DNA from: an uncultured Acidobacteriia bacterium
GTDB taxonomy: Bacteria > Acidobacteriota > Terriglobia > Bryobacterales > Bryobacteraceae
Reading direction: 5' to 3'
Length of the DNA stretch: 64,000 bases
Assembly (NCBI GenBank): GCA_903825445.1
Contig: CAIKAS010000320.1
Coordinates: forward strand, 1-64,000
The position numbers were made by a program, and so were the translations under genes. The notes beneath the pieces were generated by a model. The model worked only from the letters and a program-made list of their open reading frames with translations, made no database searches and had not been told where the DNA came from. Shown piece by piece: positions 13,749 through 32,091 of the stretch (position 1 is its first letter; each line of letters starts with the position of its first letter).

Positions 13749-16700
13749 ATGAATTCAAAACTAAATCTCAATCGGGCCATGGCTGCCTGGCTCCTTCTCT
13801 CCATTGCGCCACTGGCAATGGCTCAGTTCGCTGCCACAGGCGCGGTCTCGGGCCAGGTCAAAGACCCCTCGGGCGCCGTTGTTCAGGAAGCTTCCGTTCG
13901 GTTAATCGATACGGCAACCAAGGCAGTCAGAATCACAAAAGCAAATGACACAGGACGCTACAGTTTCAATAATGTGGAGCCGGGAACCTATGACCTCACA
14001 GTCGCAAGGCAAGGCTTTTCGCAGGCAGAGGTAAAAGCTCAGCAAGTGGAAGTTGGCCAGGCACTGACGCTCGACGTTGTACTGGCCATCGGCGCCACCT
14101 CCACGACGGTGGAAGTGGAAGCCTCGGCGGGGTCCGAACTGCAGACCACGAACTCCACCATCGGCTCAACACTTTCCGGCGATTCCCTGCTGCTGCTGCC
14201 GAACCTTGGCCGCGACGCTTCTTCGCTCGTCACGTTGCAGGTAGGTGTGGCGCCCGGCGGGCAGGTCGGCGGGACACAGAACGACCAGAGCTCCTTCCAT
14301 CTGGATGGCGGCAACAACAGTGACGACATGGCCGGCACCTACTCGACTTACACCACGAGTAATGGCGGTGGCATCTCCGGCGTGGCTCCAACCCCCGTCG
14401 AGAGCATAGAAGAATTCCAGGTTGGCGTCTCGAATCAAACCGCCGACTTCAACGGAGCCGCCGGTGCGCAGGTGCAGATGGTAACCAAACGCGGCACCAG
14501 TCAGTTCCACGGCGCACTGTACGATTACTATTTCGGCACCGACGTAGGCGCGGCCAATAGCTGGAAGAACGACCACACGCCGTCTGGAAATCTGCCCTAC
14601 ACTCCGCTCGCGGCGACACACAAGAATCGCTTCGGCGCCGCTTTGGGCGGTCCCGTGGCGCCGAAACTGATCGGCAAGAAGACCTTCTTCTTCACGAACT
14701 ATGAGGGCTATCGTTTCCCGAATAACACCACAATTGAAAAGACCGTTCCCACTGCGCTGATGCGCGCGGGTGTAATTCAGGTCCCGAACAGCGCAGGCGT
14801 ATACCAGGCCTACAATCTCAACCCCACCCCGGTAACGGTCAATGGCGTCACGTACCAGCCGGCGACATGCGCCGGCGGTGGGCTGTGCGACCCTCTCGGG
14901 CTCGGACTGAATCCGATTGTGAGTCAAATCTGGAATAAGTACATGCCTTTGCCGACTGATCCGCAGGCCGGCGATCATTACAACACCCAGGGCTACACAT
15001 CCAGCTTGAAGCTCCCGGTGAACTCCGATTTCGGTGTCATTCGCCTGGATCACGACATCACGGATCGCAACCATTTCTTTGTGAGCGACCGTTACTACGC
15101 CTTCCATTCGCAGACGTCCAGTCAGGTGGATATCGGCGGCGCGCTGCCCGGCGATGTCTTCGGACAGGCGGCCGCCAACGCCCCCCGTCCGCAGTACGAC
15201 AACTACCTGGTGGCAGGTTTAACCAGCACTCTGAAATCAAATTTGATCAACGATTTTCGCTTCAACGTCATCCGAAATTACTGGTCCTGGTCGGATCTGG
15301 GCGGAACCCCTCAACTGCCGGGTCTCGGCGGAGCTTTGGAAATAGGCGGCGAATCGTCCAACGCCCTGATTCCCTATAATGTGGATACGTCAAGTACCCG
15401 CCAGAGGGCCTGGGATGGCCACGATCAGTTCTATCGCGACGATCTCAGCCTGCTTCACCGGAATCACCAGTTCCAGTTCGGTGCTTCGTATCAGCGTGAC
15501 TACGATTACTACACGCGCAACGATAACGGCATTGCCACGGACGCTTCGCTGACCTATCAGGTCGGCACCGGCACCGGAATCGTCTTCCCCTCAACCGCCC
15601 TGCCCGTTGGTTTGCCATCCAGCCAGTTGTCGAACTATTCCACCCTTTATGGAGAAGTGCTTGGCATCGTTTCGCAATCGCAGGTCATGTATACCCGCAG
15701 CGGACCGAACCTGACTCTGAACCCGACCGGCGATCCTATCTCCATCCACGCCATTGTGCCCAGCTACAACGAATACTTCAGCGACAGCTGGAGAATACGG
15801 CCATCCCTCACACTCACCTATGGCCTGGGATATGCGATCGAAATGCCGCCCTACGAATTGCAGGGTAAGCAGGTGCAGTTTGTCGATTCGGCGGACCAGC
15901 CCATCAGCCTGCAGTCGTATCTTCAGCAGAAGCAGGTAGCCGCGCTGGCGGGCGGCGCCTATGACCCGACGATTGGCTTTGCCACAACGCCGAATGTGGC
16001 GGGAGGCGGCAAATATCCGTTCCATCCGTTCTACGGTCAATTCAGCCCGCGTCTCGCGGTTGCGTGGAGTCCCCATTCAAACGGCGGACTCCTGGGCCGT
16101 GTTCTCGGCAACGGTCAGACCGTGCTTCGCGGTGGCTACACCCGTATCTACGGGCGTCTCAACGGCGGCCGCGTGGTGGGCAGCCCCGTGCTTGGCGCAG
16201 GCCTGGAACAGGTGGTGCAGTGCATCGGCGTGACCGCATCGGGTACCTGTGCGGGTAACGGTGGCGCGAATCCCACCACGGCATTTCGCATCGGCACCGA
16301 CGGCCTTGTGGCTCCCCTGCCGGCTGTTACGCAGACTCTGGCTCAGCCTTATCTGCCAGGCGTCAACGGAAACGCGGCAGCCGGTGACGGCGCCGGTGTG
16401 GACGTGAATTTCCGGCCGGATCGCTCAGACGAATTCAACGTAACGATCCAGCGCGCACTTTCTCACAAGCTGAGCTTTGAGGTTGGCTACGTGGGCCGCA
16501 TCATCACCAACGAGTACAACCTCATCAACGTGGACGCGGTTCCCACCATGACCACGCTCAATGGTCAGAGTTTCGCCAACGCCTTCGCCAACCTCTACCA
16601 GGAGGTCGCGGGAGGGCAGGCGATTCAGGCGCAGCCCTTCCTCGAAGCGGCCCTGGGTGGCAGCACATCGTCATACTGCAAAGCCTACGCCAGTTGCACC

Positions 16701-17696
16701 GCGGCAGTAGCCGCTTTGCAAAAGACAAACATCGTCAACACCCAGGTCTACACATTGTGGGGTGCGCTGAATGCGGCTCCGTCATGGACGCTGGGACGCA
16801 CCCTGCTCGCCTCGCCCGGCGCTGCCGGCAGCGCGGTGACCACGCAGTTGCAATCCTACGAGCTGGCCGCCAGCAATGGCTGGGGCAACTACAACGCCGC
16901 CTTCCTTAGCTTTACGGCCAGAGACTGGCACGGTGTAACCGCCCGCTCCAATCTCACCTGGAGCCGTGCGATGGGAACCGGAGACTCGGCACAATCCAGC
17001 AGTTCCCAGACCGTAGTGGATCCCTGGGACTTACATGTAGGCTATGGCCCGCAATCGTACGACATCAAGTTCGTCTACAACCTGTCAATCCTGTATAAGG
17101 AGCCGTTCTTCAAGAATCAGAAAGGCGTACTTGGCCGCGTGCTCGGTGGATGGACGGTTTCACCGTTGTTCACGGCTCAAAGCGGCGCTCCTCTGGAAGT
17201 CAGCATCGGATCCGGAGCTACGGCAAACGCCCAGTCCTTCGGTGAGGAATATGGCAACAGCAACAGTGCGTCGGAGAACGCTGTATTGATCGCACCGTAC
17301 ACGGCGGGCAACTCGGCGCACTACAACGTCGTTGCCACCGGTGCGGGGACTAACGGTAACGCTGCCGCTGGTGGCTCAGGTATCAATATGTTCGCGAACC
17401 CGGCCGCGGTGCTGGCGGATTTCCGGCCGCTGATTCTGGGTCTCGATACCTCGTCTGGCGGGGCTGGCGTGCTCCGGGGCTTGCCAACCTGGAATTTGGA
17501 TGCAACGGCTTCTAAGGATTTCAGAATCCGTGAGGGCGTCGGCGCCACGATCATCATCCAGGCAAGCAACACGCTGAACCACTTCCAGCCGTCGAATCCC
17601 AGCCTCAACATCGACAGCCCGCAAACGTGGGGTGTGATCAGCGGCCAGGCCAACACTCCCCGGCAGATGCAGTTTGGATTGAGAATTCATTTCTAA
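13749..17696 (+). CDS. Oar-like TonB-dependent outer-membrane receptor
   Basis: The 1315-aa protein has a signal peptide (about 1-25, cleavage near AMAQF). A carboxypeptidase-regulatory-like beta-sandwich follows (about 30-115, with GQVKDPSGAVVQEASVRL and TGRYSFNNVEPGTYDL), then a plug domain and a long beta-barrel ending in a terminal Phe (MQFGLRIHF), as outer-membrane proteins do. This architecture is that of the very abundant acidobacterial receptors that import oligosaccharides or peptides across the outer membrane with TonB energy. The substrate cannot be read from sequence. It is followed by a strong hairpin at 17719 and then a secreted M14 peptidase. Expression appears controlled by the promoter at 13432 and its flanking dyads. 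Confidence 0.92.
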   Translation: MNSKLNLNRAMAAWLLLSIAPLAMAQFAATGAVSGQVKDPSGAVVQEASVRLIDTATKAVRITKANDTGRYSFNNVEPGTYDLTVARQGFSQAEVKAQQVEVGQALTLDVVLAIGATSTTVEVEASAGSELQTTNSTIGSTLSGDSLLLLPNLGRDASSLVTLQVGVAPGGQVGGTQNDQSSFHLDGGNNSDDMAGTYSTYTTSNGGGISGVAPTPVESIEEFQVGVSNQTADFNGAAGAQVQMVTKRGTSQFHGALYDYYFGTDVGAANSWKNDHTPSGNLPYTPLAATHKNRFGAALGGPVAPKLIGKKTFFFTNYEGYRFPNNTTIEKTVPTALMRAGVIQVPNSAGVYQAYNLNPTPVTVNGVTYQPATCAGGGLCDPLGLGLNPIVSQIWNKYMPLPTDPQAGDHYNTQGYTSSLKLPVNSDFGVIRLDHDITDRNHFFVSDRYYAFHSQTSSQVDIGGALPGDVFGQAAANAPRPQYDNYLVAGLTSTLKSNLINDFRFNVIRNYWSWSDLGGTPQLPGLGGALEIGGESSNALIPYNVDTSSTRQRAWDGHDQFYRDDLSLLHRNHQFQFGASYQRDYDYYTRNDNGIATDASLTYQVGTGTGIVFPSTALPVGLPSSQLSNYSTLYGEVLGIVSQSQVMYTRSGPNLTLNPTGDPISIHAIVPSYNEYFSDSWRIRPSLTLTYGLGYAIEMPPYELQGKQVQFVDSADQPISLQSYLQQKQVAALAGGAYDPTIGFATTPNVAGGGKYPFHPFYGQFSPRLAVAWSPHSNGGLLGRVLGNGQTVLRGGYTRIYGRLNGGRVVGSPVLGAGLEQVVQCIGVTASGTCAGNGGANPTTAFRIGTDGLVAPLPAVTQTLAQPYLPGVNGNAAAGDGAGVDVNFRPDRSDEFNVTIQRALSHKLSFEVGYVGRIITNEYNLINVDAVPTMTTLNGQSFANAFANLYQEVAGGQAIQAQPFLEAALGGSTSSYCKAYASCTAAVAALQKTNIVNTQVYTLWGALNAAPSWTLGRTLLASPGAAGSAVTTQLQSYELAASNGWGNYNAAFLSFTARDWHGVTARSNLTWSRAMGTGDSAQSSSSQTVVDPWDLHVGYGPQSYDIKFVYNLSILYKEPFFKNQKGVLGRVLGGWTVSPLFTAQSGAPLEVSIGSGATANAQSFGEEYGNSNSASENAVLIAPYTAGNSAHYNVVATGAGTNGNAAAGGSGINMFANPAAVLADFRPLILGLDTSSGGAGVLRGLPTWNLDATASKDFRIREGVGATIIIQASNTLNHFQPSNPSLNIDSPQTWGVISGQANTPRQMQFGLRIHF

Positions 17697-17858: not shown

Positions 17859-20840
17859 ATGAAGTGCAGTGGAACGAAGCCCGCGTATTTATTGGTCGCC
17901 CCGGTCCTTACGGCGTTCCTGACCATGAATGTCGCAGCCCGGGCTCAAACGGGCGCTAAACAGCAGGAGACAAAAACAACCATCAGCCCGCCAGTGGTGA
18001 ATGGTCACACGGTGGGGGACGATTACTTTCTCGCCAACTACACGCAGTTGCTGGAGTATTGGAATAAGCTGGCGAAGGAATCCGACCGTATCAAACTGGT
18101 GGATCTTGGCAAGACGCCGGAAGGTCGGCCGTTCGTGATGGCCATCATCACCTCGCCTGCGAATCACAAGAACCTTGCTCGCTACAAAGAGATTTCTCAA
18201 AAGCTGGGACGCGCTGACGGCCTCACCGACGACCAGGCGCACGCTCTGGCGGCCGAAGGCAAGACCGTAGTCTGGATCGATGGCGGCCTGCACGCCACCG
18301 AATGCGTCAACTCCCAGGCGCTGTTCACCGAAGCCTACGACTTTCTGAGCAAGAACGACGCGGAAACGCAGCGCATCCTGAACGACGATATCCTCCTGCT
18401 GGTGCCTGCCAATCCGGACGGCATGGAACTGGTCTCCGACTGGTACATGCGCGAGAGCGATCCGTTGAAGCGCAACCTCAACCTCCCACGCCTTTACCAA
18501 AAGTACGTTGGTCACGATAACAATCGCGACTCCTACGTCGCCAATCAGGCCGAGACCGAAATCATCAACAAAGAAATGTACATCGACTGGATTCCCCAGA
18601 TCATGTACAACCAGCATCAGACCGGCCCGGCAGGCGCGGTGCTGTTCTTCTCCCCGTTCCGCGATCCGTTCAACTACAATCAGGACCCGCTGGTGCCGAT
18701 CGGCATCGACCTCGTCTCAGCCGCGGTGCACGAACGGTTTATCGAAGAAGGCAAGCCGGGCGCCGTCATGCGAACCGGCGCGCCCTATTCGACATGGTTC
18801 AACGGCGGTGACCGCACGACCACTGGCTTCCATAACCAGATCGGCGTGATGTCGGAAATCATCGGCAGCCCAACGCCGCTGAGCATCCCGCTCGTCTCCT
18901 CGAAACTGTTACCTAACGGCGATCAGCCTCTGCCTATCGGCCCGAAGCAGGAATGGCACCAGCGGCAGACCATCGAATACCTTCTCTCGGCCGATCGCGC
19001 ACTGCTCGATATTGCAGCGCGCTTCCGCGAAGAGTTCCTGTTCCGCATCTATCGCGCGGGCAAGAACTCGATTGAACGCGGCAACGAGGATTACTGGACG
19101 CTCACGCCGAAGCGCATCGCGGCGCTCGACGCCGCCTACGCGAAAGACCGCGCGGCGCAAGGCCTTAGCACCGAGACTGTCGCTGCGGCAGGCGGCGATA
19201 CGGACACTGGCGGCGGCGGACGAGGCGGCATCCCCACGAAGTACTGGGACCAGCTGCACACTCCGGAAGCACGCGATCCGCGCGGCTACATCATCCCGTC
19301 GGATCAGGCGGACTTCCTGACTGGCACGAAATTCGTCAACGATCTGTTGAAGGCAGGCGTCGTGGTGCATCGCGCTACTGCCAGCTTTCAAGTCGCGGGC
19401 AAGACCTACCCGGCTGGTTCGTACGTTGTGAAAGCAGCGCAGGCCTTCCGCCCGCACCTGCGCGATATGTTTGAGCCGCAGGATCACCCGAACGATCTCC
19501 AGTATCCCGGCGGACCGCCCCGGCCTCCGTACGACATTACTGGTTATACGCTCGCGTTCCAGATGGGCGTGAAGTTCGATCGCATCCTCGACGGCTTTGA
19601 CGGGCCGTTCGAAAAGATCGACGGCCTGCTGAAACCGCCTGCGGCGAAGGTCACCACGGTTTCCGGCACGTCTGGCTATTTCCTGAGTCACCGTATCGTC
19701 GATTCCTTTGAAGGAACCACAAAGCTGCTCGCTTCCGGCGAAGCCGTTTACTGGCTGAAGCAGGATGTCACGGCCAACAACAAGACGTATCCGGCAGGCA
19801 CGATCTACATTCCGGCCAAAGCCAGCACGGCTGCGGCTGTGGATAAGCTCGCCAAAGACCTGGGTCTGCCTTTCGAAGCAACTGCGCAGAAGCCGCAGGG
19901 CGACGCGCTCAAGTTGCGTCCCGTGCGCGTCGGTCTGTGGGATCGCTATGGTGGAAATCAGGACTCAGGCCAGATTCGCTGGCTGCTCGATCAGGCCTTC
20001 CCCATTACCTTCGATCGCGTTTATGCACCCACACTCGACGCCGGTGATCTGAAGAGCAAGTACGACGTGCTGATCTTCCCGACTGGCGCCTTGCCCGGCT
20101 CCGGTGGTGGACGCGGCGGTCGCGGTGGAGGCGGCGGTGCCGCAGCTGCTGGCACGGCGACGGGGGCAACTGCTGCGGGCGGTGGACGCGGTGGAAGCGG
20201 AGCCGCTGCCGCGGGTGCAACCACTGGTGCCGGGCGTGGCGGCGGAGGCCGCGGCGGCGCAGCGGCCGACATACCGGACGAATACAAAGACCAGGTTGGC
20301 ACCGTCACGGCTGCCAAAACCGGTCCTCAGTTGCAGAGCTTTGTCCAGGATGGCGGCACGCTGGTGGCTATCGGCAGTTCAGCTTCCTTCAACAACTACT
20401 TTGGACTTCCGGTAAGCAATGGTCTGACGGAGACGGGTCCGGACGGGACCGCGAAGCCGTTGACCACCACGCAGTTCTACGTACCGGGTTCCATACTGCA
20501 GGCGAGCGTCGACAACAAGCTACCGATCGCCTGGGGACTGCCGAATCAGCTGGACGTCTTCTTCGCCACCAGTCCCTCGTTCCGGCTACAGCCGGATGCT
20601 GCGCTGAAGGGTGTACGCCCTGTGGCCTGGTACGACAGCACGCAGCCTCTGCGCAGCGGCTGGGCGTGGGGCCAGGGCTATTTGAACGGCACAGTTGCAG
20701 CGGTGGAAGCCAGTGTGGGCAAGGGTGAGATCTATCTGTTCGGGCCGGAGATTACTTTCCGGGCACAGCCGCACGGTACGTTCCCGTTCCTGTTTAACGC
20801 CATCTACCTTTCGGGAGCTACGACTGTCCATCTGAACTAA
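17859..20840 (+). CDS. secreted M14-family zinc carboxypeptidase
   Basis: The 993-aa protein has a signal peptide (about 1-29, cleavage near ARAQT) and starts at an ATG preceded by GGAGG. The metallopeptidase core shows the HxxE zinc motif His145-Ala-Thr-Glu148, the NPDG and DNNRD substrate-pocket segments, a candidate third zinc ligand His253 (NQHQTG) and the catalytic Glu at about 333 (MSEIIG). The C-terminal half has no firm domain name and contains a Gly/Arg/Ala-rich low-complexity stretch at about residues 748-805 (20101-20275). It probably removes C-terminal residues from exogenous peptides in the periplasm or outside. It stands alone between two hairpins, so it is likely monocistronic. 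Confidence 0.9.
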   Translation: MKCSGTKPAYLLVAPVLTAFLTMNVAARAQTGAKQQETKTTISPPVVNGHTVGDDYFLANYTQLLEYWNKLAKESDRIKLVDLGKTPEGRPFVMAIITSPANHKNLARYKEISQKLGRADGLTDDQAHALAAEGKTVVWIDGGLHATECVNSQALFTEAYDFLSKNDAETQRILNDDILLLVPANPDGMELVSDWYMRESDPLKRNLNLPRLYQKYVGHDNNRDSYVANQAETEIINKEMYIDWIPQIMYNQHQTGPAGAVLFFSPFRDPFNYNQDPLVPIGIDLVSAAVHERFIEEGKPGAVMRTGAPYSTWFNGGDRTTTGFHNQIGVMSEIIGSPTPLSIPLVSSKLLPNGDQPLPIGPKQEWHQRQTIEYLLSADRALLDIAARFREEFLFRIYRAGKNSIERGNEDYWTLTPKRIAALDAAYAKDRAAQGLSTETVAAAGGDTDTGGGGRGGIPTKYWDQLHTPEARDPRGYIIPSDQADFLTGTKFVNDLLKAGVVVHRATASFQVAGKTYPAGSYVVKAAQAFRPHLRDMFEPQDHPNDLQYPGGPPRPPYDITGYTLAFQMGVKFDRILDGFDGPFEKIDGLLKPPAAKVTTVSGTSGYFLSHRIVDSFEGTTKLLASGEAVYWLKQDVTANNKTYPAGTIYIPAKASTAAAVDKLAKDLGLPFEATAQKPQGDALKLRPVRVGLWDRYGGNQDSGQIRWLLDQAFPITFDRVYAPTLDAGDLKSKYDVLIFPTGALPGSGGGRGGRGGGGGAAAAGTATGATAAGGGRGGSGAAAAGATTGAGRGGGGRGGAAADIPDEYKDQVGTVTAAKTGPQLQSFVQDGGTLVAIGSSASFNNYFGLPVSNGLTETGPDGTAKPLTTTQFYVPGSILQASVDNKLPIAWGLPNQLDVFFATSPSFRLQPDAALKGVRPVAWYDSTQPLRSGWAWGQGYLNGTVAAVEASVGKGEIYLFGPEITFRAQPHGTFPFLFNAIYLSGATTVHLN

Positions 20841-22202: not shown

Positions 22203-22722
22203 ACCCGTCTCCCGCATGCTGGCCTGGATATGTCTGGTGGCAATTCCCGTAGCGGCGCAGCAGCCTAACCTCGGGCGTCCGCTCTCGCCGGAGGAAATCC
22301 GAAAGATTGATCTCACTATCGGGACGGACGGCGCCGGCTTGCCCCCTGGCAGTGGCTCCGTGGCGACAGGCGCCACCGTCTACGCGCAGAAGTGTCAGGT
22401 TTGCCACGGGCCGGAAGGCTCCGGCAAGCCGCAGGACCGCCTGACGGGAGGTGTGGGAACACTCGCCTCCGCCGCGCCCGTCAAGACGCCAGTCAGCTAC
22501 TGGCCCCGCGCAACCACGCTGTTCGACTACATCCGGCGCGCCATGCCGCTGCCGAGCCCACAATCGCTGACCAACGATGAGGTGTACGCGATCACCGCCT
22601 ACTTGTTATCCATCGACGGTGTGGTGGCGAAGGATGCAACGCTCGACGCCAAGACATTGCCGCAAGTCAAAATGCCCAACCGCGACGGTTTCGTCAGTTA
22701 CTGGCGCCTGCAAAAAAAGTAG
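22189..22722 (+). CDS. soxD: SoxD-like monohaem cytochrome c
   Basis: The 177-aa protein has a signal peptide (about 1-24) and a class I cytochrome c domain with haem motif Cys69-Gln-Val-Cys72-His73. A downstream Met (about residue 124, RRAMPLPSPQSL) is the likely axial ligand; this arrangement and the YAITAYLL segment are typical of SoxD. The gene overlaps the end of soxC by 14 bases, so the products are surely co-translated and probably form one enzyme complex, with this cytochrome taking electrons from the molybdenum centre. Confidence 0.88.
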   Translation: MSTFRPVSRMLAWICLVAIPVAAQQPNLGRPLSPEEIRKIDLTIGTDGAGLPPGSGSVATGATVYAQKCQVCHGPEGSGKPQDRLTGGVGTLASAAPVKTPVSYWPRATTLFDYIRRAMPLPSPQSLTNDEVYAITAYLLSIDGVVAKDATLDAKTLPQVKMPNRDGFVSYWRLQKK

Positions 22723-22840: not shown

Positions 22841-23692
22841 TTATTTGTCCTCCGAAATTGCTTTCTGAATCGCCTTGACGGTTTGATCCGTCTGCATTTG
22901 TAAGATCGTTTTGCCGTTTTCGATGGTCTTCTCTATGGGCTTGAGGTTCACCCCGTTCACAGTCAGCTGGTCAGCCTCGGTCCGCTCTTTGAGCCGCGCG
23001 CTCTCGGGATTCACGGCCATCAGAATGGAGGTGTTGTAGTAATTGTCGCTGAATCCGCCCCTGCCTTCGGTGATCCCCAGTTTGGTCCTGACATACTCAT
23101 TCACCGCCCGGCGGTCGTAGTACTCAGGTATAAAATGCACCCTGGAAGGACCGCCAGCCCACTTCGGCCCCAGTTCCTCGGCAACTTCCTTCATGCCTCG
23201 CTGCGCCCCCTGATGGTCGCCAATCAGGATAATCTCCTTGAAGCCGTCAACCTTGAGGGCATTACAGATATCGGTCAGCGTCGATTTATAGGCTGCCAGA
23301 GTAATGTTGAAATCACCCACGTAAGGTCCGCGCTGGCCGTCATCCGGTGGCACATATCGAACTACCGGGGCGATCAGGGCGTTTCCGAGTTTGCGCGCGA
23401 TCAGGTCGGTCTGGCCGCGCAACATGTTTTGATGTTTATCCAGAGTAATAAACGGCCCGGTGGCTTCGAGACCGCCCGCAGGCAGAATAACCGTGGTCTT
23501 GCCCGCCTTCATGGCATTTTTGATTTCGAGCCAGGTCATTTCCTCCATCAAAACGGTGTCCACGGCCCGGATCGCCGGTGGATTGGCGTAATCTTTGAGC
23601 ACGGGCGACTGGCCCTCACTCTGCGCCAGGGCTAACCCGCCGCCGACGGCGATCAGGCTCGCGCCTGCGATAATCCAACTGATTCTCTTCAT
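22841..23692 (-). CDS. secreted creatininase-family protein with altered metal site
   Basis: The start is ATG 23692 behind GGAGGAA (283 aa); a TTG at 23704 in the same frame is less likely. A signal peptide (MKRISWIIAGASLIAVGGG, cleaved near LALAQ) marks it as exported, unlike cytosolic creatininases. The creatininase fold is seen from ILPAGGLEATGPFITLD and the IILIGDHQG block. In classical creatininase the first block carries a Glu-x-His zinc pair; here it reads Glu-Ala-Thr, with a nearby Asp-Lys-His that may substitute. The substrate is unknown. A paralogue sits at 29420-30238, within the divergent operon. Its promoter region is shared with that operon (23705-23913). Confidence 0.82.
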   Translation of the reverse strand: MKRISWIIAGASLIAVGGGLALAQSEGQSPVLKDYANPPAIRAVDTVLMEEMTWLEIKNAMKAGKTTVILPAGGLEATGPFITLDKHQNMLRGQTDLIARKLGNALIAPVVRYVPPDDGQRGPYVGDFNITLAAYKSTLTDICNALKVDGFKEIILIGDHQGAQRGMKEVAEELGPKWAGGPSRVHFIPEYYDRRAVNEYVRTKLGITEGRGGFSDNYYNTSILMAVNPESARLKERTEADQLTVNGVNLKPIEKTIENGKTILQMQTDQTVKAIQKAISEDK

Positions 23693-23744
23693 AAGTTCCT
23701 CCAAGACGATCTAACGACACTTTAGGGCGTGCCCGGTGCCCGAT

Positions 23745-23913: not shown

Positions 23914-26325
23914 GTGGTCGAGCCAGCACGCACTTTATACTACAACCGTATTTTCCGCTACAGCCAGTTAGCGACAGCTCCCGCAGTCCTGTTTTTGGCT
24001 CTGACTTCCGCGGTCTCCGCCCAAACGCCGCAGCGCGCGACGGTTACGGCCTATTGCGCCGGTTGCCACAACGACAAGCTGAAATCCGCTGGTCTCTCCC
24101 TGACGGCGCTGGATCCGGATCACCCGGAGCCAAATGCGAAAGACTGGGAGAAGGTCATCCTGAAGATTCGCGCCGGCATGATGCCACCCGCCGGAGCCAG
24201 ACGCGACAACACGGCCATCAACGGCCTGGCCGATTCGCTCGAACATACTCTCGACCAATCCGCGTCGCGCAGCCCCAACCCCGGCCGCCCTGCCCTGCAC
24301 CGGCTGAATCGGGCCGAGTATGCCAACTCAGTTCGGGATCTGCTCGGTTTGAGTATCGACCCGGCGAATTGGTTGCCCGCCGACGATATGAGCCATGGCT
24401 TCGACAACATGGCCGAGGTTCTCAACATTTCGCCGACCCTGATGGACGGCTACGTTCGCGCCGCGGGCAAAATCAGCCGTCTCGCTGTCGGCGATCCCAC
24501 CGCAAGTCCTCAGGAAGAGACCTACCACCTGAACTCGGCGTTTTCGCAGACGCATCATGTGGAAGGCACACCGCTCGGCACGCGCGGCGGCATCGTATTC
24601 ACACACAATTTCCCCGCCGATGGCGACTACAGGTTCCGCATGACGCTGTACTTCACCACCAACACCCTGCTGTTCGGCACGTATGAGAAGGGGGAGCAAC
24701 TGGAAGTCGCGGTCAATGGGGAGAAGGTCGCGGTGATTCCCGTCAATCCCCGGATGAAAGTGGATGACGACATGAAGACGCCGCCCATCCACATCAAGGC
24801 CGGTCCCCAGGTGATCTCGGCGTCATTCATTCAGAAAAGCGAAGCGCCCGTGGACGATTTTGTGATGCCATTCGAGCAGAGCCTCGAAGATCTTTTCGCA
24901 GGCCAGACGATGGGCCTCACCGCGCTGCCTCACCTGCGCAACATCGCCGTGGTCGGCCCGTACAACATCACGGGCATCAGCGACACGCCGAGCCGCGCGA
25001 GGATCTTCACCTGCCACCCATCGAAACAGGAAGAAGAAATCGGCTGCGCGAAGAAGATTCTCAGCGATCTGGCACGCCGGGCTTACAGACGTCCCATCAC
25101 CGATGCTGATCGCGAAGATCTGCTTAGCGTCTATCAGACTGGCCGCAACACTTCTCAGCAAGGCAAAACCGGCGTCGATTTTGACTCGGGCATCCGCATG
25201 GCGCTTGAGTTCATTTTGGCCAATCCGCAGTTCGTCTTCCGTTTTGAGCACACACCACCCAACGCGGCGCCGGGCACGAATTTTCGCGTGAGCGATGTCG
25301 AACTGGCATCGCGGCTTTCCTATTTCCTATGGAGCAGCGCCCCGGACGATCGTCTGCTGACCCTGGCTGCGGCCGGGCGACTGCACGAACCCAAACAGCT
25401 TGAAGCCGAGGTTCGACGCATGCTGGCAGACCCGCGCTCGGAAGCGCTGATTTCCAACTTCGCCGGTCAGTGGCTCTATCTGCGTAACCTGAAAAGCGCA
25501 CAGCCCGACATTTTCACTTACCCCAACTTCGACGAAAACCTGCTTGATTCCATGCGGCGCGAAACGGAGTTGTTCTTCGGCAGCATCATGCACGAGGACC
25601 GGAACATCACCGATCTGCTCAGTGCCAACTACACGTATGTGGATGAGCGCCTCGCCCGTCACTACGGCATTCCCGATGTGGAAGGCAATCGCTTCCGCCG
25701 CGTCACGCTGACCGATCCAAATCGCTTTGGGTTGCTCGGCCAGGGGAGCATCCTCACCGTGACCTCCTTCGCCACGCGAACGTCGCCGGTTGTGCGCGGG
25801 AAGTGGGTGCTGGAGAATATTATGGGCGCGCCGCCGCCAAATCCCCCGGCCAACGTTCCGCCGCTCAAGGAAGCCGCTGCGGGAACGAAAGATGTTTCTG
25901 TCCGCGTGCGCCTCGAAGAGCATCACAAGAACCCCGTCTGCGCGGCCTGCCACACCAAGATGGACCCGATCGGTTTCGCTCTCGAGAATTTCGATGGCAC
26001 CGGTGTCTGGCGAACACGTGACGGTCTCGATCCGATTGATGCGTCCGGGACGATGGTCGACGGCACGCCGGTCAACGGTCCCGCAAGTCTGCGGGAGGCG
26101 CTGATGGCGCGCAGCGACGTGTTCATCCGCAACTTCACGCAGAGGCTTCTGACCTACGGTCTGGGCCGTGGCGTGGAGTATTACGACATGCCTGCCGTGC
26201 GGGAAATCGATCGCGACGCCGCGAAAGAGAACAACCGTTTTTCCGCAATCATTCTCGGCATTGTGAAGAGTGTTCCATTCCAGATGCGGCGCGCCGAGTC
26301 CGCTCCCGCAAACGCAGCCGATTAG
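23914..26325 (+). CDS. planctomycete-type cytochrome / DUF1587-DUF1595-DUF1592-DUF1588-DUF1585 protein
   Basis: The 803-aa exported protein begins at GTG 23914 behind AAGGA and has a signal peptide (about 1-36, cleaved near VSAQT). An N-terminal haem-binding motif Cys48-Ala-Gly-Cys51-His52 forms a PSCyt1-like cytochrome domain. The rest shows the ordered DUF1587, DUF1595, DUF1592, DUF1588 and DUF1585 modules (LHRLNRAEYANSVRDLL; RLSYFLWSSAPDD; MDPIGFALENFDGTGVWR) and a second CxxCH at Cys676-Cys679-His680. Such proteins are found with DUF1552 partners in planctomycetes and acidobacteria; their reaction is not established. It is the first gene of a five-gene operon. Confidence 0.9.
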   Translation: MVEPARTLYYNRIFRYSQLATAPAVLFLALTSAVSAQTPQRATVTAYCAGCHNDKLKSAGLSLTALDPDHPEPNAKDWEKVILKIRAGMMPPAGARRDNTAINGLADSLEHTLDQSASRSPNPGRPALHRLNRAEYANSVRDLLGLSIDPANWLPADDMSHGFDNMAEVLNISPTLMDGYVRAAGKISRLAVGDPTASPQEETYHLNSAFSQTHHVEGTPLGTRGGIVFTHNFPADGDYRFRMTLYFTTNTLLFGTYEKGEQLEVAVNGEKVAVIPVNPRMKVDDDMKTPPIHIKAGPQVISASFIQKSEAPVDDFVMPFEQSLEDLFAGQTMGLTALPHLRNIAVVGPYNITGISDTPSRARIFTCHPSKQEEEIGCAKKILSDLARRAYRRPITDADREDLLSVYQTGRNTSQQGKTGVDFDSGIRMALEFILANPQFVFRFEHTPPNAAPGTNFRVSDVELASRLSYFLWSSAPDDRLLTLAAAGRLHEPKQLEAEVRRMLADPRSEALISNFAGQWLYLRNLKSAQPDIFTYPNFDENLLDSMRRETELFFGSIMHEDRNITDLLSANYTYVDERLARHYGIPDVEGNRFRRVTLTDPNRFGLLGQGSILTVTSFATRTSPVVRGKWVLENIMGAPPPNPPANVPPLKEAAAGTKDVSVRVRLEEHHKNPVCAACHTKMDPIGFALENFDGTGVWRTRDGLDPIDASGTMVDGTPVNGPASLREALMARSDVFIRNFTQRLLTYGLGRGVEYYDMPAVREIDRDAAKENNRFSAIILGIVKSVPFQMRRAESAPANAAD

Positions 26326-26349
26326 CACCTGAACGGAGATCTGAAAACC

Positions 26350-27726
26350 ATGTACGTCACCAAAAAGCATTTGTCACGCCGCACACTTCTGCGGGGCGCG
26401 GGCGTCGCACTGGCACTGCCGCTGCTCGATTCCATGGTCCCCGCGCAGACGCCGCTGCGTAAGACCGCGGCCGCCGGGCGCACGCGTTTCGCCGCCATCG
26501 AAATCGTTCACGGTGCTGCCGGAAGCACACTGGACGGCACTACCAAACACTACTGGTCGCCCGCCGGCGAGGGCTCGGATTTTGAAATCACCCCGACTCT
26601 CCTGTCGCTGGCGCCATATCGGGACTACCTGACCATCGTCAGCGGTACGGATCTCAACAACGCCTCAGCGCTTTCGCCGCGCGAAGAAGGCGCTGATCAT
26701 ACGCGCTCATCGGCCGTCTTTCTGACCGCCGCGCATCCGAAGATGACCGAAGGCTCCGACATCTACCTCGGCACTTCCATCGACCAGATTTATGCGCAGA
26801 AGGCGGGGCAGGAAACGCCGCTGCCTTCCATTCAGCTCTGCATCGAAGATGTTGGTTCGCTCTCCGGCGCCTGCGGGTATGGATACAGCTGCGTTTATGC
26901 CAACACGATCAGCTGGGCGTCGCCCACGCAGCCGCTGCCCATGGAAATCGATCCCCGCGTCGCCTTCGAACGCCTGTTTGGCGATGGCGCGACTCCGGCG
27001 GAACGGCTCGCGCGCAGGCAGGCGGATCGCAGCATTCTCGACACCATTCGGCAGGAGATGGCGCGCCTCACGAAAGGTCTCGACGCCAGCGATCGCGGTC
27101 GCCTCAACGATTATCTGGATAGTGTCCGGGAGATCGAAGCCCGTATCCAGAAGGTGGAAAAATATAACTCCAGCGGCGAAGCGCGCGCGTTACCCGAAGC
27201 GCCGGTCGGCGTGCCGGATTCGTTCGAAGAGCATGTAAAGCTGATGTTCGATCTCCAGGTGCTGGCGTTTATGACGGACACCACACGCGTCTCGTCGTTC
27301 AAGCTGAGCCGCGACGTGAGTTCACGCGTGTACCCGGAAAGCGGCGTCAAGTCTCCGTTCCATGGCCTCTCGCATCACGGAGAAAACACCGATACCATCG
27401 CGGAATTCGCCAAGCTGAACCAGTACCACGTCAGCAAGGCGGCCTACTTTATCGACAAGCTGAAGAACACGCCGGATGGCGATGGCAATCTGCTCGACCA
27501 CTCGCTGGTACTCTACGGCAGCCCGATGGGCGACTCTCACATTCACGATCACAAGCGCCTGCCGATCTTCCTGGCAGGCAAAGCAAACGGCCAGTTGCGT
27601 GGCAATCAGCATTTCCGCGCGCCCGATGGCACGCCGGCCGCGAATCTGCTTCTTTCGGTTCTGCGGAAACTCGGCGTGGAAGATGTGGCAAGCATTGGCG
27701 ACAGCACAGGAGCACTGGCAATATGA
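26350..27726 (+). CDS. DUF1552 family Tat-exported protein
   Basis: The 458-aa protein carries a Tat signal (SRRTLLRGAGVALALPLLD) and the DUF1552 features AGEGSDFEITPTL, SVFLTAAHPK-like and LYGSPMGDSHIHDH. It begins 24 bases after the DUF1592-type gene, its usual genomic partner, so the two probably act together in the periplasm. It overlaps the ankyrin gene by four bases. No catalytic assignment can be made; the C-terminal His-rich segment could bind metal. Confidence 0.9.
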   Translation: MYVTKKHLSRRTLLRGAGVALALPLLDSMVPAQTPLRKTAAAGRTRFAAIEIVHGAAGSTLDGTTKHYWSPAGEGSDFEITPTLLSLAPYRDYLTIVSGTDLNNASALSPREEGADHTRSSAVFLTAAHPKMTEGSDIYLGTSIDQIYAQKAGQETPLPSIQLCIEDVGSLSGACGYGYSCVYANTISWASPTQPLPMEIDPRVAFERLFGDGATPAERLARRQADRSILDTIRQEMARLTKGLDASDRGRLNDYLDSVREIEARIQKVEKYNSSGEARALPEAPVGVPDSFEEHVKLMFDLQVLAFMTDTTRVSSFKLSRDVSSRVYPESGVKSPFHGLSHHGENTDTIAEFAKLNQYHVSKAAYFIDKLKNTPDGDGNLLDHSLVLYGSPMGDSHIHDHKRLPIFLAGKANGQLRGNQHFRAPDGTPAANLLLSVLRKLGVEDVASIGDSTGALAI

Positions 27727-29396
27727 GGAACAGAACCTGGTTATTGGCGGGCCTTGGAGTGGCCGGTCTCTGCACCGTAGGATTTTTATTCGGACAGGCG
27801 GCCGGCGATGGCTTCACTCCACTGCATAAGGCTGTTTCAGAGGACGATCTCCCTGCCGTGAAGCGGCTTCTGGCGGCTGGGGCGGACGCACACGCGGCCA
27901 CGATCCTCGGCCACGTGACGCCGCTGGCGCTCGCGGCCACCAACGGCGATGCCGCCATCATTCAGGCGCTGCTCACCGCGGGCGCCGGTGTGGAAGTTGC
28001 GAATGCTGACGGAGCTACACCGCTGATGCTTGCCGCGTCCTCCGGCAACGTGGATGCTATCAAGACACTGCTGGACCATGGTGCTTCGATCAATGCGAAG
28101 GAACCACTGCGCGGAGAAACGCCGCTGATGTTCGCGGCGGGACGGAACCGCGCCTCGGCTGTGAAGTTTCTGATATCGCGCGGGTCTGACCCCGCCGTCA
28201 CAAGCACGGTCGTGAAGCTGGAAAGGCCGGCCTTTGACGAAGACGGGAACCCCATCGTGCAGGCCGGGCGCGGCGGCGGTGCGGCTGGCGGGACAGATGG
28301 CGCTGCAGGATCAAGTGGCGCGGCGGGTGGACGCGGTGGTCGCGGCGGTGGCGCACGCGCGGGGCGGGGTGGAGGAGCCGCTGGCGGCAGCGGCGCGGCA
28401 GGCGGTTTCGCGGGCGGGCGCGGTGGTGGAGGGGGCCGCGCGAAGTCGACTGCGGCCACTGTATCCGGTGGTATGACGGCCCTGTTGCTCGCAGCACGCA
28501 ACGGTTACCTTGAAGCGTCGCGCGCTCTACTCGAAGCGGGCGCCGATGTAAACGAGGTCTGCGCGGGAGACAAGAGCTCTCCGATCGTGATCGCCATCGC
28601 CAACGGCCATTACGACTTGGCCAAATACCTGTTGGAACATGGCGCCGATCCAAATCTTGCCAGCATTGACGGCCTGGCGGCGCTCTACGCGGTGGAAGAC
28701 ACCGAATATGCGGAGGTGGGCTGGGCTCCCAATCCGATCACGGGACAGGAAAAGACGACCTATCTGGAACTCTTGAAGTTGTTGCTCGATCACAAGGCAG
28801 ACCCCAACGCCCAGTTGCAAAAGGCTCTGTGGTTCCGCCCGACTTCGCACAACCAGGAATGGGTGGACAAGAAAGGTATCACGCCGTTCTGGCGGGCTGC
28901 TATGGCTACCGACGTTGCCGCCATGAAAATTCTTCTGGCGGGCGGCGCGGATCCGAAGATCGCCTCAGCCGAAGGCGTCACGCCGCTCATGGTTGCGGCG
29001 GGGCTCGGCTGGGGTGCGAATGCGTCCCGCACGGTACCGGACGGCTGGCTCCCGGCGGTGCAGTTCCTTGTCACGGAGACGGGCGCGGACGTGAATGCCA
29101 AAGATACCTACAATTACACGGCACTGCACGGCGCGGCCTACCGGGGAGATAACGAGGTGGTCAAGTATCTGGTTTCGAAAGGGGCGAAGCTTGACGTCCG
29201 CAGCAAATCCGGACAGACCTTAACGGACATGGCCAACGGTCCCATGGTGAATGCGCATTTGCCGATCGACCATCCGGACACGATTGCGCTGCTTGAAAGC
29301 TTCGGCGCTCCGCCGCCCGAAGTACCGGTGGCCGGCGCTCCAAAACAGGGCCGCAGTGCAGCGGCTGCTGCGGCTGCCGCTACCACGACCAAATAA
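27723..29396 (+). CDS. exported ankyrin-repeat protein with Gly-rich insert
   Basis: The 557-aa protein starts at an ATG overlapping the previous stop (ATGA). A short hydrophobic N-terminus (WLLAGLGVAGLCTVGFLFG) suggests export or membrane anchoring. About five ankyrin repeats cover residues 30-160 and another block covers about 245-540 (TPLMLAASSGNVDAIKTLLDHGA and similar). The two blocks are separated by a Gly/Arg/Ala-rich insert (about residues 179-242, 28258-28446) resembling inserts in other secreted proteins of the window. A Pro/Ala tail ends the protein. A protein-binding scaffold in the operon is the safest reading. Confidence 0.88.
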   Translation: MRNRTWLLAGLGVAGLCTVGFLFGQAAGDGFTPLHKAVSEDDLPAVKRLLAAGADAHAATILGHVTPLALAATNGDAAIIQALLTAGAGVEVANADGATPLMLAASSGNVDAIKTLLDHGASINAKEPLRGETPLMFAAGRNRASAVKFLISRGSDPAVTSTVVKLERPAFDEDGNPIVQAGRGGGAAGGTDGAAGSSGAAGGRGGRGGGARAGRGGGAAGGSGAAGGFAGGRGGGGGRAKSTAATVSGGMTALLLAARNGYLEASRALLEAGADVNEVCAGDKSSPIVIAIANGHYDLAKYLLEHGADPNLASIDGLAALYAVEDTEYAEVGWAPNPITGQEKTTYLELLKLLLDHKADPNAQLQKALWFRPTSHNQEWVDKKGITPFWRAAMATDVAAMKILLAGGADPKIASAEGVTPLMVAAGLGWGANASRTVPDGWLPAVQFLVTETGADVNAKDTYNYTALHGAAYRGDNEVVKYLVSKGAKLDVRSKSGQTLTDMANGPMVNAHLPIDHPDTIALLESFGAPPPEVPVAGAPKQGRSAAAAAAAATTTK

Positions 29397-29419
29397 GATC
29401 CGGCAACGCGGAAACCCAG

Positions 29420-30238
29420 GTGAAGAACTTCAAATCAATTCTTGCTTCGGCGCTATTCCTCGCTCCCGCCCTGCTGGCGCAAACAAAGCCGCCGGTGGAT
29501 TTCGAGCTGATGACATGGCCCGAAGTGAAGCAGGCCCTTGCGGACGGCAAAACCACCGCGCTGATCATGAACGGAGGCACGGAGCAGCGCGGTCCGCAGG
29601 GCGTGAACGGGGCACACACGCTCATCGTTCACAGGCTGGGGGTGGAAATAGCCGAGAAGCTTGGCAATGCGATCGTCGCTCCCGTTATTCCGTTTTCGCC
29701 GAATCGCGCGAGTGCGGCGCTGCCCGGCACGATCGGCATTTCAACCGAGTTATTTGCCCGCCTGAACGAAGAAGTCGCGGAGCAGATGATCACCAACGGC
29801 TTCAGGAACATCGTGTTTCTGGGCGATCACGGCGGAGGCCAGACGGAGCTCGCCGCAGTCGCGAAGAAGCTGAGTGAAAAGTACGCGGACAAGGGCATTC
29901 GCGTGGTTCACGCCAATGAGTTCTACAGCAAAGTGGGAACGGACTTCGACAAGTGGCTCGCGGACAACGGCTACCCTGCTGGCTCCCATGCCTCCGTGAA
30001 AGACACTTCGGAGTTACTTTATCTAGGCGGCGATAAGGGCTGGGTTCGTAAGGACCTGATTGCGACGGCGGTTGGCGACCCCGTTCGCAAACCGGGCGAG
30101 GCTCGTGACCCGAACGCCCCGCGCGTAAACAATGGAATCGAAGGCGATGCCCGCCGGTCCACTCCGGAAATCGGCAAGAAGGTTTCTGATATTAAAGTCG
30201 ATTACGCGGTCGCTCAGATCCGCCAACTGCTAAAGTGA
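29420..30238 (+). CDS. secreted creatininase-family protein (paralogue)
   Basis: The 272-aa protein starts at GTG 29420 and has a signal peptide (about 1-20, cleaved near LLAQT). The creatininase fold is visible in the GGTEQRGPQGVNGAH block and the NIVFLGDHGGGQ block. As in the paralogue at 22841-23692, the usual His after Glu-Gln is replaced (here by Arg), while a His appears later in the block, so metal binding may differ from true creatininase. It is the fourth gene of the operon and overlaps the transporter start by four bases, suggesting that the transporter takes up its product or substrate; this link is inference. Confidence 0.83.
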   Translation: MKNFKSILASALFLAPALLAQTKPPVDFELMTWPEVKQALADGKTTALIMNGGTEQRGPQGVNGAHTLIVHRLGVEIAEKLGNAIVAPVIPFSPNRASAALPGTIGISTELFARLNEEVAEQMITNGFRNIVFLGDHGGGQTELAAVAKKLSEKYADKGIRVVHANEFYSKVGTDFDKWLADNGYPAGSHASVKDTSELLYLGGDKGWVRKDLIATAVGDPVRKPGEARDPNAPRVNNGIEGDARRSTPEIGKKVSDIKVDYAVAQIRQLLK

Positions 30239-31662
30239 GCGTTCTGAGCGAATCAGCGTCAGTCACGCAATCGGGAGAGCCGGAGGAGCGTCCTCAGTCC
30301 GCTATTCGGGAAACTCCGACCAACACGCGGCGCACCATTGTTACCTTTGGCGCGTCAATCGCATTTTTGTCTTTTCTGGACCGGGCCGCCATCAGCCAGG
30401 CGGCTCCTTCCATCTCGCGCGAGATGCATTTGTCGCCGGCGCAGATGGGACTGGTGTTTTCCGCGTTCGGCTTCACGTACGCGGCGTTTGAAATGCCGAG
30501 CGGGTGGCTTTGCGACCGGTTCGGAGTGCGGAATCTTCTCACCAGAGTAGTTATGCTGTGGTCGGTTTTCACCGCAGTGACAGGCGGTGCGTGGAACTTC
30601 CCCTCCCTGTTTGTCAGTCGGTTGTTGTTTGGCGCTGGAGAGTCCGGCTGCTTCCCAGGCCTCGCCTCCATGTTCCGTACATGGCTGCCGCCCCGCGAGC
30701 GAAATTCAGCGGAAGGAATTAAAGCGGCCTGCGCGCGATGGGGCGCGGCCATCGCCCCCGCTTTGATCACGGGTCTCTATGTCTGGTTCACGTGGCGACA
30801 GGTCTTCGTACTGCTCGGCCTGCTGGGCGTGGCACTGGGGGTTATCTTCGTGCGGTGGTACCGGGACGATCCTCGCCTGCACCCTTCGGTGAACGCCGCT
30901 GAATTGGCGCTCTTGCCTGTTCCGAAGACCCGTTCCGCATCGCATGGCAGCGGCACCGCGTGGAAGGCGATCGTCGCTTCGAGGAGCGTCTGGGCGCTCG
31001 GCTTGCAGTGGTTCGCCCATTATTATGGCTTCTACTTCTATATCACCTGGTTGCCCCTGTATCTCTATCGCGTACGAGGCCTGGATCTCCGTCATGGCGC
31101 TCTGGCAGCCGGCCTGCCCTTATTTACCGCGGGATTAGGCAGTCTGTTCGCAGGCTGGGCGACTTCGGCCCTCACAGCGCGCGTCGGCGGCACCGGTCGT
31201 GCTCGCAAACTGATGGGCTACATCTCTTACGGTGGCGCTGCGGCGCTGCTGCTCTTGTTTACTTGGGTGTCGAATCCGGTACTGGCGCTGATTGCCATGA
31301 GCTTGTCGAGCTTCGCCGCCGAATTTAGTGGCCCGATTTCGTGGACCACCGCCATGGACATCGGCGGAGAAAACGTCGGCTCCGTCGCTGGTTTTATGAA
31401 TACTCTCGGTCAACTTGGCGCCAGCGTCGCGCCGGCAGTTACCGGTTTTCTGCTCCAGCTAACTGGTAATGGCTGGAATTTTACGTTCTACGCATCGGCT
31501 CTGATCTACGCAGCGGGCGCGCTGTGCTGGATGATGATCGACCCGACCGCACCACTCAACATCAGTGAGCCTCCACAGGGCTCAAATGGATATCGAGAGC
31601 AGGGCCAAGACATCTCAGTCTGCTACGGACGTTTAGAGAGCCAGAACAGCGGTACCCGATGA
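30235..31662 (+). CDS. MFS transporter, anion:cation symporter (hexuronate/glucarate) type
   Basis: The 475-aa protein starts at GTG 30235 in a GTGA overlap with the previous stop. After a hydrophilic N-terminus of about 35 residues it shows twelve hydrophobic segments and the family marks FLDRAAISQAAPSI in helix 1 and GWLCDRFGVRNLL between helices 2 and 3. These place it with ACS-family carriers for organic acids such as uronates. It is the last gene of the operon; the C-terminal tail after about residue 445 is unrelated to the family and may be extra. The substrate is not readable. Confidence 0.87.
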   Translation: MSVLSESASVTQSGEPEERPQSAIRETPTNTRRTIVTFGASIAFLSFLDRAAISQAAPSISREMHLSPAQMGLVFSAFGFTYAAFEMPSGWLCDRFGVRNLLTRVVMLWSVFTAVTGGAWNFPSLFVSRLLFGAGESGCFPGLASMFRTWLPPRERNSAEGIKAACARWGAAIAPALITGLYVWFTWRQVFVLLGLLGVALGVIFVRWYRDDPRLHPSVNAAELALLPVPKTRSASHGSGTAWKAIVASRSVWALGLQWFAHYYGFYFYITWLPLYLYRVRGLDLRHGALAAGLPLFTAGLGSLFAGWATSALTARVGGTGRARKLMGYISYGGAAALLLLFTWVSNPVLALIAMSLSSFAAEFSGPISWTTAMDIGGENVGSVAGFMNTLGQLGASVAPAVTGFLLQLTGNGWNFTFYASALIYAAGALCWMMIDPTAPLNISEPPQGSNGYREQGQDISVCYGRLESQNSGTR

Positions 31663-31695: not shown

Positions 31696-32091
31696 CTATT
31701 TCTTCGACGGCTCTACGTTGTCGCGGAGAAAGGAGGCGTAGTCGTCCTCTTCGAGAGTGCCCGCTGCCAATTCCAAGACAGCCTGCGCGGCATCTTCCTC
31801 GCTGGCGATGAAACGATAACCGTTGAGTTCAAGGAACAAGATTCCCACTACGAAGCCGGTGCGTTTGTTGCCGTCGACGAAGGGATGGTTGCGGACTATC
31901 CCGGCAGTGTAGACGGTCGCCATATCTATCACGTCCGCGGCATCGGCATAGGCAAAATGCTGTTGCGGCCGAGCCAGCGCCGATCTCAACAAACCAACAT
32001 CCCGAAGGCCCGACGCGCCGCCATGCAGGGCAAGCAGACGGTCATGGATGGCAAGCGCGTCCCGTTCCTCGATCCAGATCGGCTCTCTCAC
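31696..32091 (-). CDS. doc: Doc-family toxin (Fic fold)
   Basis: The 131-aa protein matches Doc in length and has the Fic/Doc active-site motif HPFVDGNKRTGF at residues 69-80. The Lys in GNKR is the Doc variant, which phosphorylates EF-Tu rather than adenylylating targets. All conserved motif residues are intact, so the toxin is probably functional. The gene overlaps the antitoxin gene by four bases and lies in a minus-strand operon controlled by the operator at 32330. Confidence 0.92.
   Translation of the reverse strand: MREPIWIEERDALAIHDRLLALHGGASGLRDVGLLRSALARPQQHFAYADAADVIDMATVYTAGIVRNHPFVDGNKRTGFVVGILFLELNGYRFIASEEDAAQAVLELAAGTLEEDDYASFLRDNVEPSKK

Follow-up and report, generated by a model that had tools for sequence, protein, structure and literature searches.

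The closest described relatives of the locus considered here are genes with PSCyt/PSD domains and a few proteins that share single elements with it. According to the main text of He et al. (2017, PMC5615132), the PSCyt3 genes of Verrucomicrobia usually adjoin one family of unknown genes, and some PSCyt/PSD genes carry carbohydrate-binding modules (CBMs); a carbohydrate role was suggested. The accessible text of two further reports describes Cbp2D of Cellvibrio japonicus as a secreted protein with two CxxCH cytochrome domains, the Pfam domain DUF1587 and a CBM; its gene is counted among six required genes, and growth on insoluble cellulose was delayed by its single deletion (PMC8981238, PMC12542752). 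The X183 domain of Cbp2D was reported to give electrons to two bacterial lytic polysaccharide monooxygenases (LPMOs; PMC8981238), but a report that also treats the X132 domain found no electron supply from the X183 domains of a Teredinibacter protein to its LPMO (PMC10916295). A review mentions AnkB of Pseudomonas aeruginosa, a periplasmic ankyrin protein that is genetically tied to the heme enzyme KatB (PMC10294975). Here, we describe a locus of an uncultured Acidobacteriia bacterium (Bryobacteraceae), in which a DUF1592/DUF1552 gene pair stands in one operon with genes for an ankyrin-repeat protein, an exported creatininase-fold protein (CRE-A) and an MFS transporter. The whole stretch of 64,000 nucleotides that was analysed (positions 1 to 64,000 of contig CAIKAS010000320.1, assembly GCA_903825445.1) is called the window.

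An initial annotation of the window had regarded the function of DUF1592/DUF1552 pairs as unknown. In the open-licence literature (supplements aside), we found no paper that assigns DUF1592/DUF1552 a reaction or joins these genes and none on exported creatininases in Acidobacteria. The cellulose phenotype of the DUF1587-containing Cbp2D qualifies the statement of unknown function.

Recurrent linkage of CRE-A to a DUF1592-DUF1552-ankyrin core

The five genes form a run on the forward strand (23914-31662) with intergenic spacings of 24, -4, 23 and -4 bases (Table 1). The initial annotation had described a five-gene operon with a second creatininase-like gene (g0) lying divergently upstream, and on re-examination we obtained the same coordinates and gaps for the former and located the latter on the opposite strand. 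Pfam searches identified PF07586 (DUF1552, renamed HXXSHH) in gene 2 (299.1 bits, cut-off 30), ankyrin repeats in gene 3, the creatininase family PF02633 in gene 4 (130.3 bits, cut-off 31.3) and in g0 (73.5 bits) and MFS_1 in gene 5 (200 bits). Sec-like leaders were recognized in genes 1, 3, 4 and g0, export being predicted from the N-termini by eye and without a signal-peptide program. The host genome is a 6.27 Mb draft (96% complete, 9% contamination), and its Pfam search yielded 12 DUF1552 genes and only two creatininase-family genes, both of which are located at the operon. Since these two are the sole family members and the arrangement recurs in distant genomes, the grouping of these genes is more than chance.

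To describe the neighbourhood of the CREATININASE-like gene, which is gene 4 and represents the CRE-A subfamily of exported creatininases, we inspected up to 10 kb on each side of the best 80 of 165 relatives from a scan of genome contigs. Many of these loci end at contig edges. As open reading frame (ORF) we simply took the longest one in each case, shadow ORFs cluttered the neighbour clustering, and labelling of neighbours by BLAST against the window genes missed distant paralogs (E > 1e-8). All counts over these 80 loci rest on one locus set, from which duplicates in other sets (L041=L081, L042=L082, L043=L083 and others) were excluded. Here, we found at least one of the DUF1592, DUF1552 and ankyrin genes near CRE-A in 27 of the 80 loci, which belong to Acidobacteriota, Gemmatimonadota and Armatimonadota, and all three in 20 of them. 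A DUF1552 gene was present in 23 CRE-A loci compared with about 2.4 expected over the 1.23 Mb examined, an expectation that uses the density of DUF1552 genes of any kind in the host genome alone. As control, we used 20 ordinary creatininases of relatives, all of which carry the E-x-H ... D motif. No core gene was found near any of them (27/80 vs 0/20, Fisher p = 8e-4; 1.6e-3 when the three loci closest to the window were removed). These controls were chosen without a fixed rule from matches with E-values of about 1e-15 to 1e-11 and make up roughly half of the matches in this range; a g0-like gene is also present in one control (L229). The nearest named CRE-A relative (82% identity) stems from a Bryobacteraceae metagenome-assembled genome (L081), although records very near the host may be missing.

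The linked genes occur in three main arrangements. The core precedes CRE-A in the window, L081, L082, L089, L128 and others, it follows CRE-A in L084, L107, L113, L126, L127, L134, L135, L138 and L140, and both are divergent in L083, L088, L093, L094, L098, L124 and L155. A tree built from 63 CRE-A proteins, 26 of them linked, requires at least 12 changes of the linked/unlinked label, six of which are forced by well-supported branches. At the genome level (151 genomes), CRE-A was found in 13, the close DUF1552 clade in 11 and both in 8 genomes (p = 3.5e-8); for this comparison the identity thresholds were set after inspection of the match lists and a CRE-A fragment in genome G012 was left out.

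The core was also analysed from the DUF1552 side. The closest DUF1552 clade (at least 59% identity, a cut that we placed at a visible gap) comprises 22 loci including the window, with at most 11 candidates scored per genome. The DUF1592 gene precedes DUF1552 in 20 of these loci and the ankyrin gene directly follows it in 19, some of which end at a contig or region edge. The exceptions are L076, which stops after DUF1552, and L062 and L078, which have neither a DUF1592 nor an ankyrin gene. The same order was seen in the somewhat more distant relatives G142 (L080) and G078 (L172). Eleven of the 22 loci and a further copy (L184) come from G112, a class-level relative. When we inspected the other 11 DUF1552 genes of the host genome, a DUF1592 gene was found beside or near ten, and the eleventh begins at a contig end; an ankyrin gene directly after DUF1552 was seen in none of the nine copies with readable DNA beyond, and in one host copy (L162) an ankyrin gene lies divergently upstream of DUF1592. 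Thus, DUF1592-DUF1552-ankyrin is a recurrent core.

Taken together, the recurrent linkage of genes 1-4 is well supported. The exported module of DUF1592/DUF1552, ankyrin and creatininase-fold proteins that the initial annotation had proposed is borne out by its recurrence across phyla, and for the creatininase this recurrence removes the objection, raised with the proposal, that its partners might not co-occur in related genomes. For the MFS gene, in contrast, the same survey gave little co-occurrence (see below).

Several side observations concern these neighbourhoods. An exported-looking VOC/glyoxalase-type gene lies near CRE-A in 11 of the 80 loci (L083, L084, L093, L094, L103, L105, L111, L124, L155, L157, L159), seven of them with core genes, and this small protein is a possible further module member. 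In five of the 53 core-less loci (L110, L116, L118, L120, L137), a reaction-centre-type cytochrome c gene with two CxxCH motifs (the L116 copy scores 52.6 bits in Pfam) directly precedes CRE-A; it was found in 0/20 controls, and three core loci (L084, L093, L103) have weaker relatives at distances of up to about 8 kb. G112 (4.7 Mb) contains at least 12 close core copies and 10 g0-like creatininase matches (L065-L075, L184), a strong lineage expansion in which several cores adjoin TonB-type receptors. One G112 core copy is followed by genes for a 2Fe-2S protein and a molybdopterin-binding large subunit (L073:4165-6984). A g0-like gene stands divergently near another G112 core copy (L184) and shares the contig with the core in L073, and in G041 a g0-like creatininase (L059:4956-5675) is followed by a 2Fe-2S protein.

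Fold and site residues of CRE-A

The structural model of gene 4 (mean predicted local distance difference test score, pLDDT, of 92.1) matched creatininase with a Z-score of 24.3 and a root-mean-square deviation (rmsd) of 3.4 over 240 residues, and the next unrelated chain reached Z 8.5. For creatininase (P. putida, PDB entries 1j2t/1q3k) we assume the metal ligand set E34, H36, D45, H120 and E122; the last residue is mentioned in the titles of creatininase mutant structures matched by gene 4. At these positions gene 4 has E55, R57, H66, H137 and G139, and H137 is preceded by D136. We aligned the window protein with those of 62 of the 80 loci, leaving out shorter or redundant rows. It can be seen that E55, R57, H66, D136, H137, G139, H190, D195 and T196 are invariant in 63/63 rows. 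In the alignment used for the comparison with creatininase, E, H and D are retained by seven canonical relatives, which show N-G-H or S-S-H at the second segment. The invariance in CRE-A indicates that the CRE-A site was rewired and has not decayed, and the changed metal site noted in the initial annotation is therefore real and conserved. A glycine at the position of E122 is also present in the solved family member 3no4, so that the E122-to-G change alone is not special. The pattern suggests that the two-metal site has probably become a one-metal site, in which an arginine takes the position of the second metal's histidine. The g0 relatives represent a second site variant, which mostly reads E..N..KH..GDS, the window copy having T and GDH.

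Assignment to a named enzyme of the family was rejected in each case. For the creatininase enzyme itself (TIGR04448, cut-off 235), gene 4 and g0 scored 55.5 and 42.8 bits, and the two-metal ligand set is lacking, with E, R, H, H and G at its positions in 63/63 CRE-A proteins. MftE (TIGR03964) gave 43.8 bits at a cut-off of 172, and IolN (NF041098) 43.3 bits at a cut-off of 245, covering residues 26-142 only.

Core proteins, transporter and neighbouring genes

The gene 1 protein scored above the Pfam cut-offs of PF07626, PF07637, PF07631, PF07627 and PF07624, in this order. Both CxxCH motifs are present in 17 of 19 relatives (L088 and L107 have one each as called) and two hemes are predicted for the protein. 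In its AlphaFold2 model (mean pLDDT 77.7), a beta sandwich resembles CBM families 6, 35 and 36, with best Foldseek E-values of 2.4e-3 to 4e-2, none of them below 0.001, and VIA-align Z-scores of 8-10 over about 105 residues (rmsd about 3). For the rest of the protein no fold match was seen among the matches listed, which this one domain filled, and PDB sequence searches with genes 1 and 2 returned nothing credible.

In gene 2, the H-x-x-S-H-H motif (H338, S341, H342, H343) is invariant in 20 aligned DUF1552 rows and the N-terminus carries a twin-arginine stretch reading SRRTLLRG. Profile comparison gave 95.3% over 350 columns for DUF1552 against DUF1501 (reversed control 0.3%) and 88.5% for DUF1501 against sulfatases. 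Thus, DUF1552 is a distant relative of DUF1501 and, via DUF1501, perhaps of the sulfatase/alkaline-phosphatase group.

The best family for gene 5 among the 25 shown of 36 was TIGR00893, the D-galactonate transporter subfamily of ACS-type MFS proteins (238 bits, below the subfamily cut-off of 395). An MFS gene is linked to the operon genes in the window and in three of the 80 CRE-A loci (L081, L082, L089), and relatives of 53-71% identity are separate from the core in G012 (beside the CRE-A fragment), G013 and G048. The MFS gene represents an addition specific to the lineage. The idea that the whole five-gene operon is one conserved unit was rejected on the 3/80 count, and the initial suggestion that the module ends in uptake was not supported as a general feature. 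In G012 (L208, about 12065-12349), CRE-A is present only as a C-terminal fragment with an in-frame stop next to an open MFS relative, which is, judging by the sequence, a partial loss of the pair.

In L082 the gene order is TonB-type receptor, DUF1592, DUF1552, ankyrin, CRE-A, MFS and M14-type peptidase. The corresponding receptor and M14 genes of the window both stand upstream of the operon, unlike the flanking copies of L082; because both flank the operon there, we kept them as tentative associates. As general members they were rejected, since a TonB-type receptor was found near CRE-A in 13/80 loci vs 5/20 controls (which had one extra receptor query), an M14 gene occurred once in 80 loci, and G054 carries the pair without the operon. 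Between the M14 gene and g0 lies a molybdoenzyme-cytochrome pair (20862-22722, + strand), in which a gene for a SoxC-type sulfite dehydrogenase (549 bits, NCBIfam cut-off 420) overlaps a small cytochrome c gene. Immediately past the MFS gene, a toxin gene of the Doc type (Fic family) is located on the complementary strand (31696-32091). Promoter and terminator scans gave numbers close to chance (2 found vs 2.0 expected; 10 vs 7.9).

Table 1. Coordinates of genes and protein features at the locus (window positions)
Feature	Position	Strand	Remarks
TonB-type receptor, outer membrane	13749..17696	+	L082 has a 70% identical relative immediately before the operon; tentative associate
M14-type peptidase-like protein	17859..20840	+	78% identical relative (704 residues) directly downstream of MFS in L082; tentative associate
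g0, second exported creatininase-like gene, divergent	22841..23704	-	287 aa; E..T..KH..GDH site
Gene 1	23914..26325	+	Exported DUF1587/1595/1592/1588/1585 protein, planctomycete-type PSCyt3/PSD, 803 aa, two CxxCH motifs
First CxxCH heme-binding motif, gene 1 residues 48-52	24055..24069	+	H52 invariant; C48 and C51 at least 90% (20 rows)
CBM-like beta sandwich, gene 1 residues ~195-353	24496..24972	+	AlphaFold2 model; Foldseek and VIA-align matches to CBM6/35/36
Second CxxCH, gene 1 residues 676-680, PSCyt3 part	25939..25953	+	C676, C679, H680 invariant (20 rows)
Gene 2	26350..27726	+	DUF1552/HXXSHH protein, 458 aa, distant DUF1501 relative
Twin-arginine-like motif SRRTLLR, gene 2 residues 9-15	26374..26394	+	R10, R11 invariant, 20/20 rows
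Gene 3	27723..29396	+	Ankyrin-repeat protein, N-terminal leader, 557 aa
Gene 4	29420..30238	+	CRE-A, exported creatininase-fold protein, 272 aa
Metal-site segment, gene 4 E55, R57, H66 (canonical E34, H36, D45)	29582..29617	+	63/63 CRE-A rows
Second site segment, gene 4 D136-H137 (canonical G119-H120)	29825..29830	+	63/63 rows
Gene 5	30235..31662	+	MFS transporter, ACS/galactonate-transporter-like, 475 aa; lineage-specific member

Proposed function and comparison with known systems

The initial annotation had proposed a catabolic role, with uronates, lactones and amides as candidate substrates. Our preferred reading, which we hold tentatively and somewhat short of even confidence, is that the locus encodes a periplasmic cytochrome-linked machine for degradation of a carbohydrate-like substrate, with CRE-A hydrolysing a product and an ACS-type MFS protein importing it in this lineage. 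According to this proposal, the two-heme DUF1592 protein would bind a carbohydrate-like ligand via its CBM6/35-like domain and pass electrons from this ligand, or from the reaction of a partner, to the respiratory chain. The DUF1552 protein, with its twin-arginine-type N-terminus, would be its hydrolase-like or structural partner, and the exported ankyrin protein might serve as scaffold or as heme-enzyme helper, like AnkB with catalase. CRE-A would be a hydrolase with a site rebuilt around Glu55, His66, Asp136 and His137, its substrate being a core product of ring, lactone or amide-like type, and the transporter would carry an acidic product into the cell. A bolder version, to which we give only limited credence, is that CRE-A constitutes a new catalytic branch with a one-metal site (E55, H66, H137, D136) and R57 in the second metal position, and that it is the dedicated periplasmic partner of a DUF1592/DUF1552/ankyrin redox complex which oxidatively opens a sugar-like ring.

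A number of observations weigh against the degradation machine. The resemblance of the gene 1 sandwich to CBM6/35/36 is a fold match only, in a model with the pLDDT given above; since unrelated jelly-roll proteins reach Z 8-9 in the same match list, the CBM6/35-like assignment is a statement about fold. No glycosidase was found among the ten window genes scanned with Pfam, and direct comparison of the DUF1552 and sulfatase profiles gave only 2.0%. The MFS gene accompanies few CRE-A loci, a distant MFS gene being found in 2/20 controls, and TonB-type receptors are not enriched over controls. The linkage label is clustered on the CRE-A tree (12 changes vs a shuffled mean of 20.2), which indicates that linkage reflects partly shared descent and was partly regained or lost. 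Moreover, 53 of the 80 CRE-A loci have no core gene in the DNA examined, many of them being cut by contig ends, and CRE-A stands beside varied genes there; this suggests that CRE-A also works without the core. Finally, amides or peptides would be just as compatible with the M14 neighbour and the creatininase fold.

The core-less loci are at the same time an argument for a possible, though doubtful, alternative, in which two partly independent units share one transcript, the core on the one hand and an exported creatininase with a transporter for a separate small-molecule pathway on the other, adjacency being a matter of regulatory convenience. None of 11 G112 core copies inspected adjoins CRE-A, one having a g0-like gene on its contig, and the MFS relatives that stand apart from the core fit this picture as well. 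Against this alternative stand a linkage that is repeated in several orders and three phyla, its absence from the controls, and genome co-occurrence of 8/13 and 8/11.

We consider it improbable that the creatininase-like proteins hydrolyse peptides or amides in the manner of MftE in mycofactocin maturation, so that the module would mature or recycle a peptide or cofactor of the cytochrome and not break down food. MftE is among the fold relatives and an M14 peptidase-like gene accompanies the operon in two genomes. Against this, the MftE match is weak and misses its cut-off, M14 and receptor genes also occur without the operon (G054), and no radical-SAM enzyme was detected among the ten window genes scanned, small peptides not being searched for.

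Replacement of two metal-2 positions (H36 to R, E122 to G) together with D45 to H might also mean that CRE-A is a non-catalytic binding protein through which the core senses a solute or metal. Such a pseudoenzyme appears quite improbable to us, as the site is invariant and 3no4 shares the glycine. The invariant residues include H190 and D195-T196, which fall at what we take to be the H-A-G-x-x-E-T-S segment of the family with its catalytic histidine.

Stress protection, in which the ankyrin protein would shield a heme protein from oxidants in the way AnkB protects KatB, with repair of oxidised periplasmic molecules by the other genes, is very unlikely, because the operon has no catalase or peroxidase family (Pfam) and the CBM-like domain and transporter suit nutrition better, even if the heme-enzyme precedent for a periplasmic ankyrin (review PMC10294975) and the listing of the DUF1552 gene RB9955 in a table of Rhodopirellula genes regulated under changed conditions speak for it.

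If the bolder version is confirmed, it would represent a new cytochrome-linked route of carbohydrate degradation across Acidobacteriota, Gemmatimonadota and Armatimonadota. DUF1592/DUF1552 pairs are abundant, and a partner enzyme with a readable site together with an ankyrin protein, and sometimes a transporter, turns them into a testable four- or five-gene system.

Compared with known systems, the core pair is not new. Window gene 1 has the same kind of PSCyt/PSD domains as the PSCyt3/PSD genes described in the main text of He et al. (2017, PMC5615132), in which ankyrin, creatininase-fold and MFS neighbours of the pair are not mentioned. In the open-licence literature we found no description of the ankyrin and creatininase partners or of the rewired site. 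Cbp2D additionally carries X158, X183, FN3 and CBM2 and, in the accessible text, its proposed partner is an LPMO; electron donation to LPMOs was rejected for our locus, as the draft host genome (96% complete) gave 0 matches to PF03067 (LPMO_10, E 0.001). We infer from descriptions that the X132 domain of Cbp2D/Cbp2E corresponds to DUF1592/1588. Cbp2D lends independent support to a role of DUF1592-type proteins in polysaccharide use. AnkB differs from gene 3 in that its partner is a catalase and the operon is a different one. MftE and IolN are creatininase-family hydrolases, the weak matches to which lie far below their cut-offs. With creatininase (1j2t/1q3k), CRE-A shares the fold of its model and the equivalents of E34 and H120; unlike creatininase, it is predicted to be exported and carries the exchanges H36 to R, D45 to H, G119 to D and E122 to G. 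The rewired site thus offers a clean case of a two-metal hydrolase fold that may have changed its chemistry.

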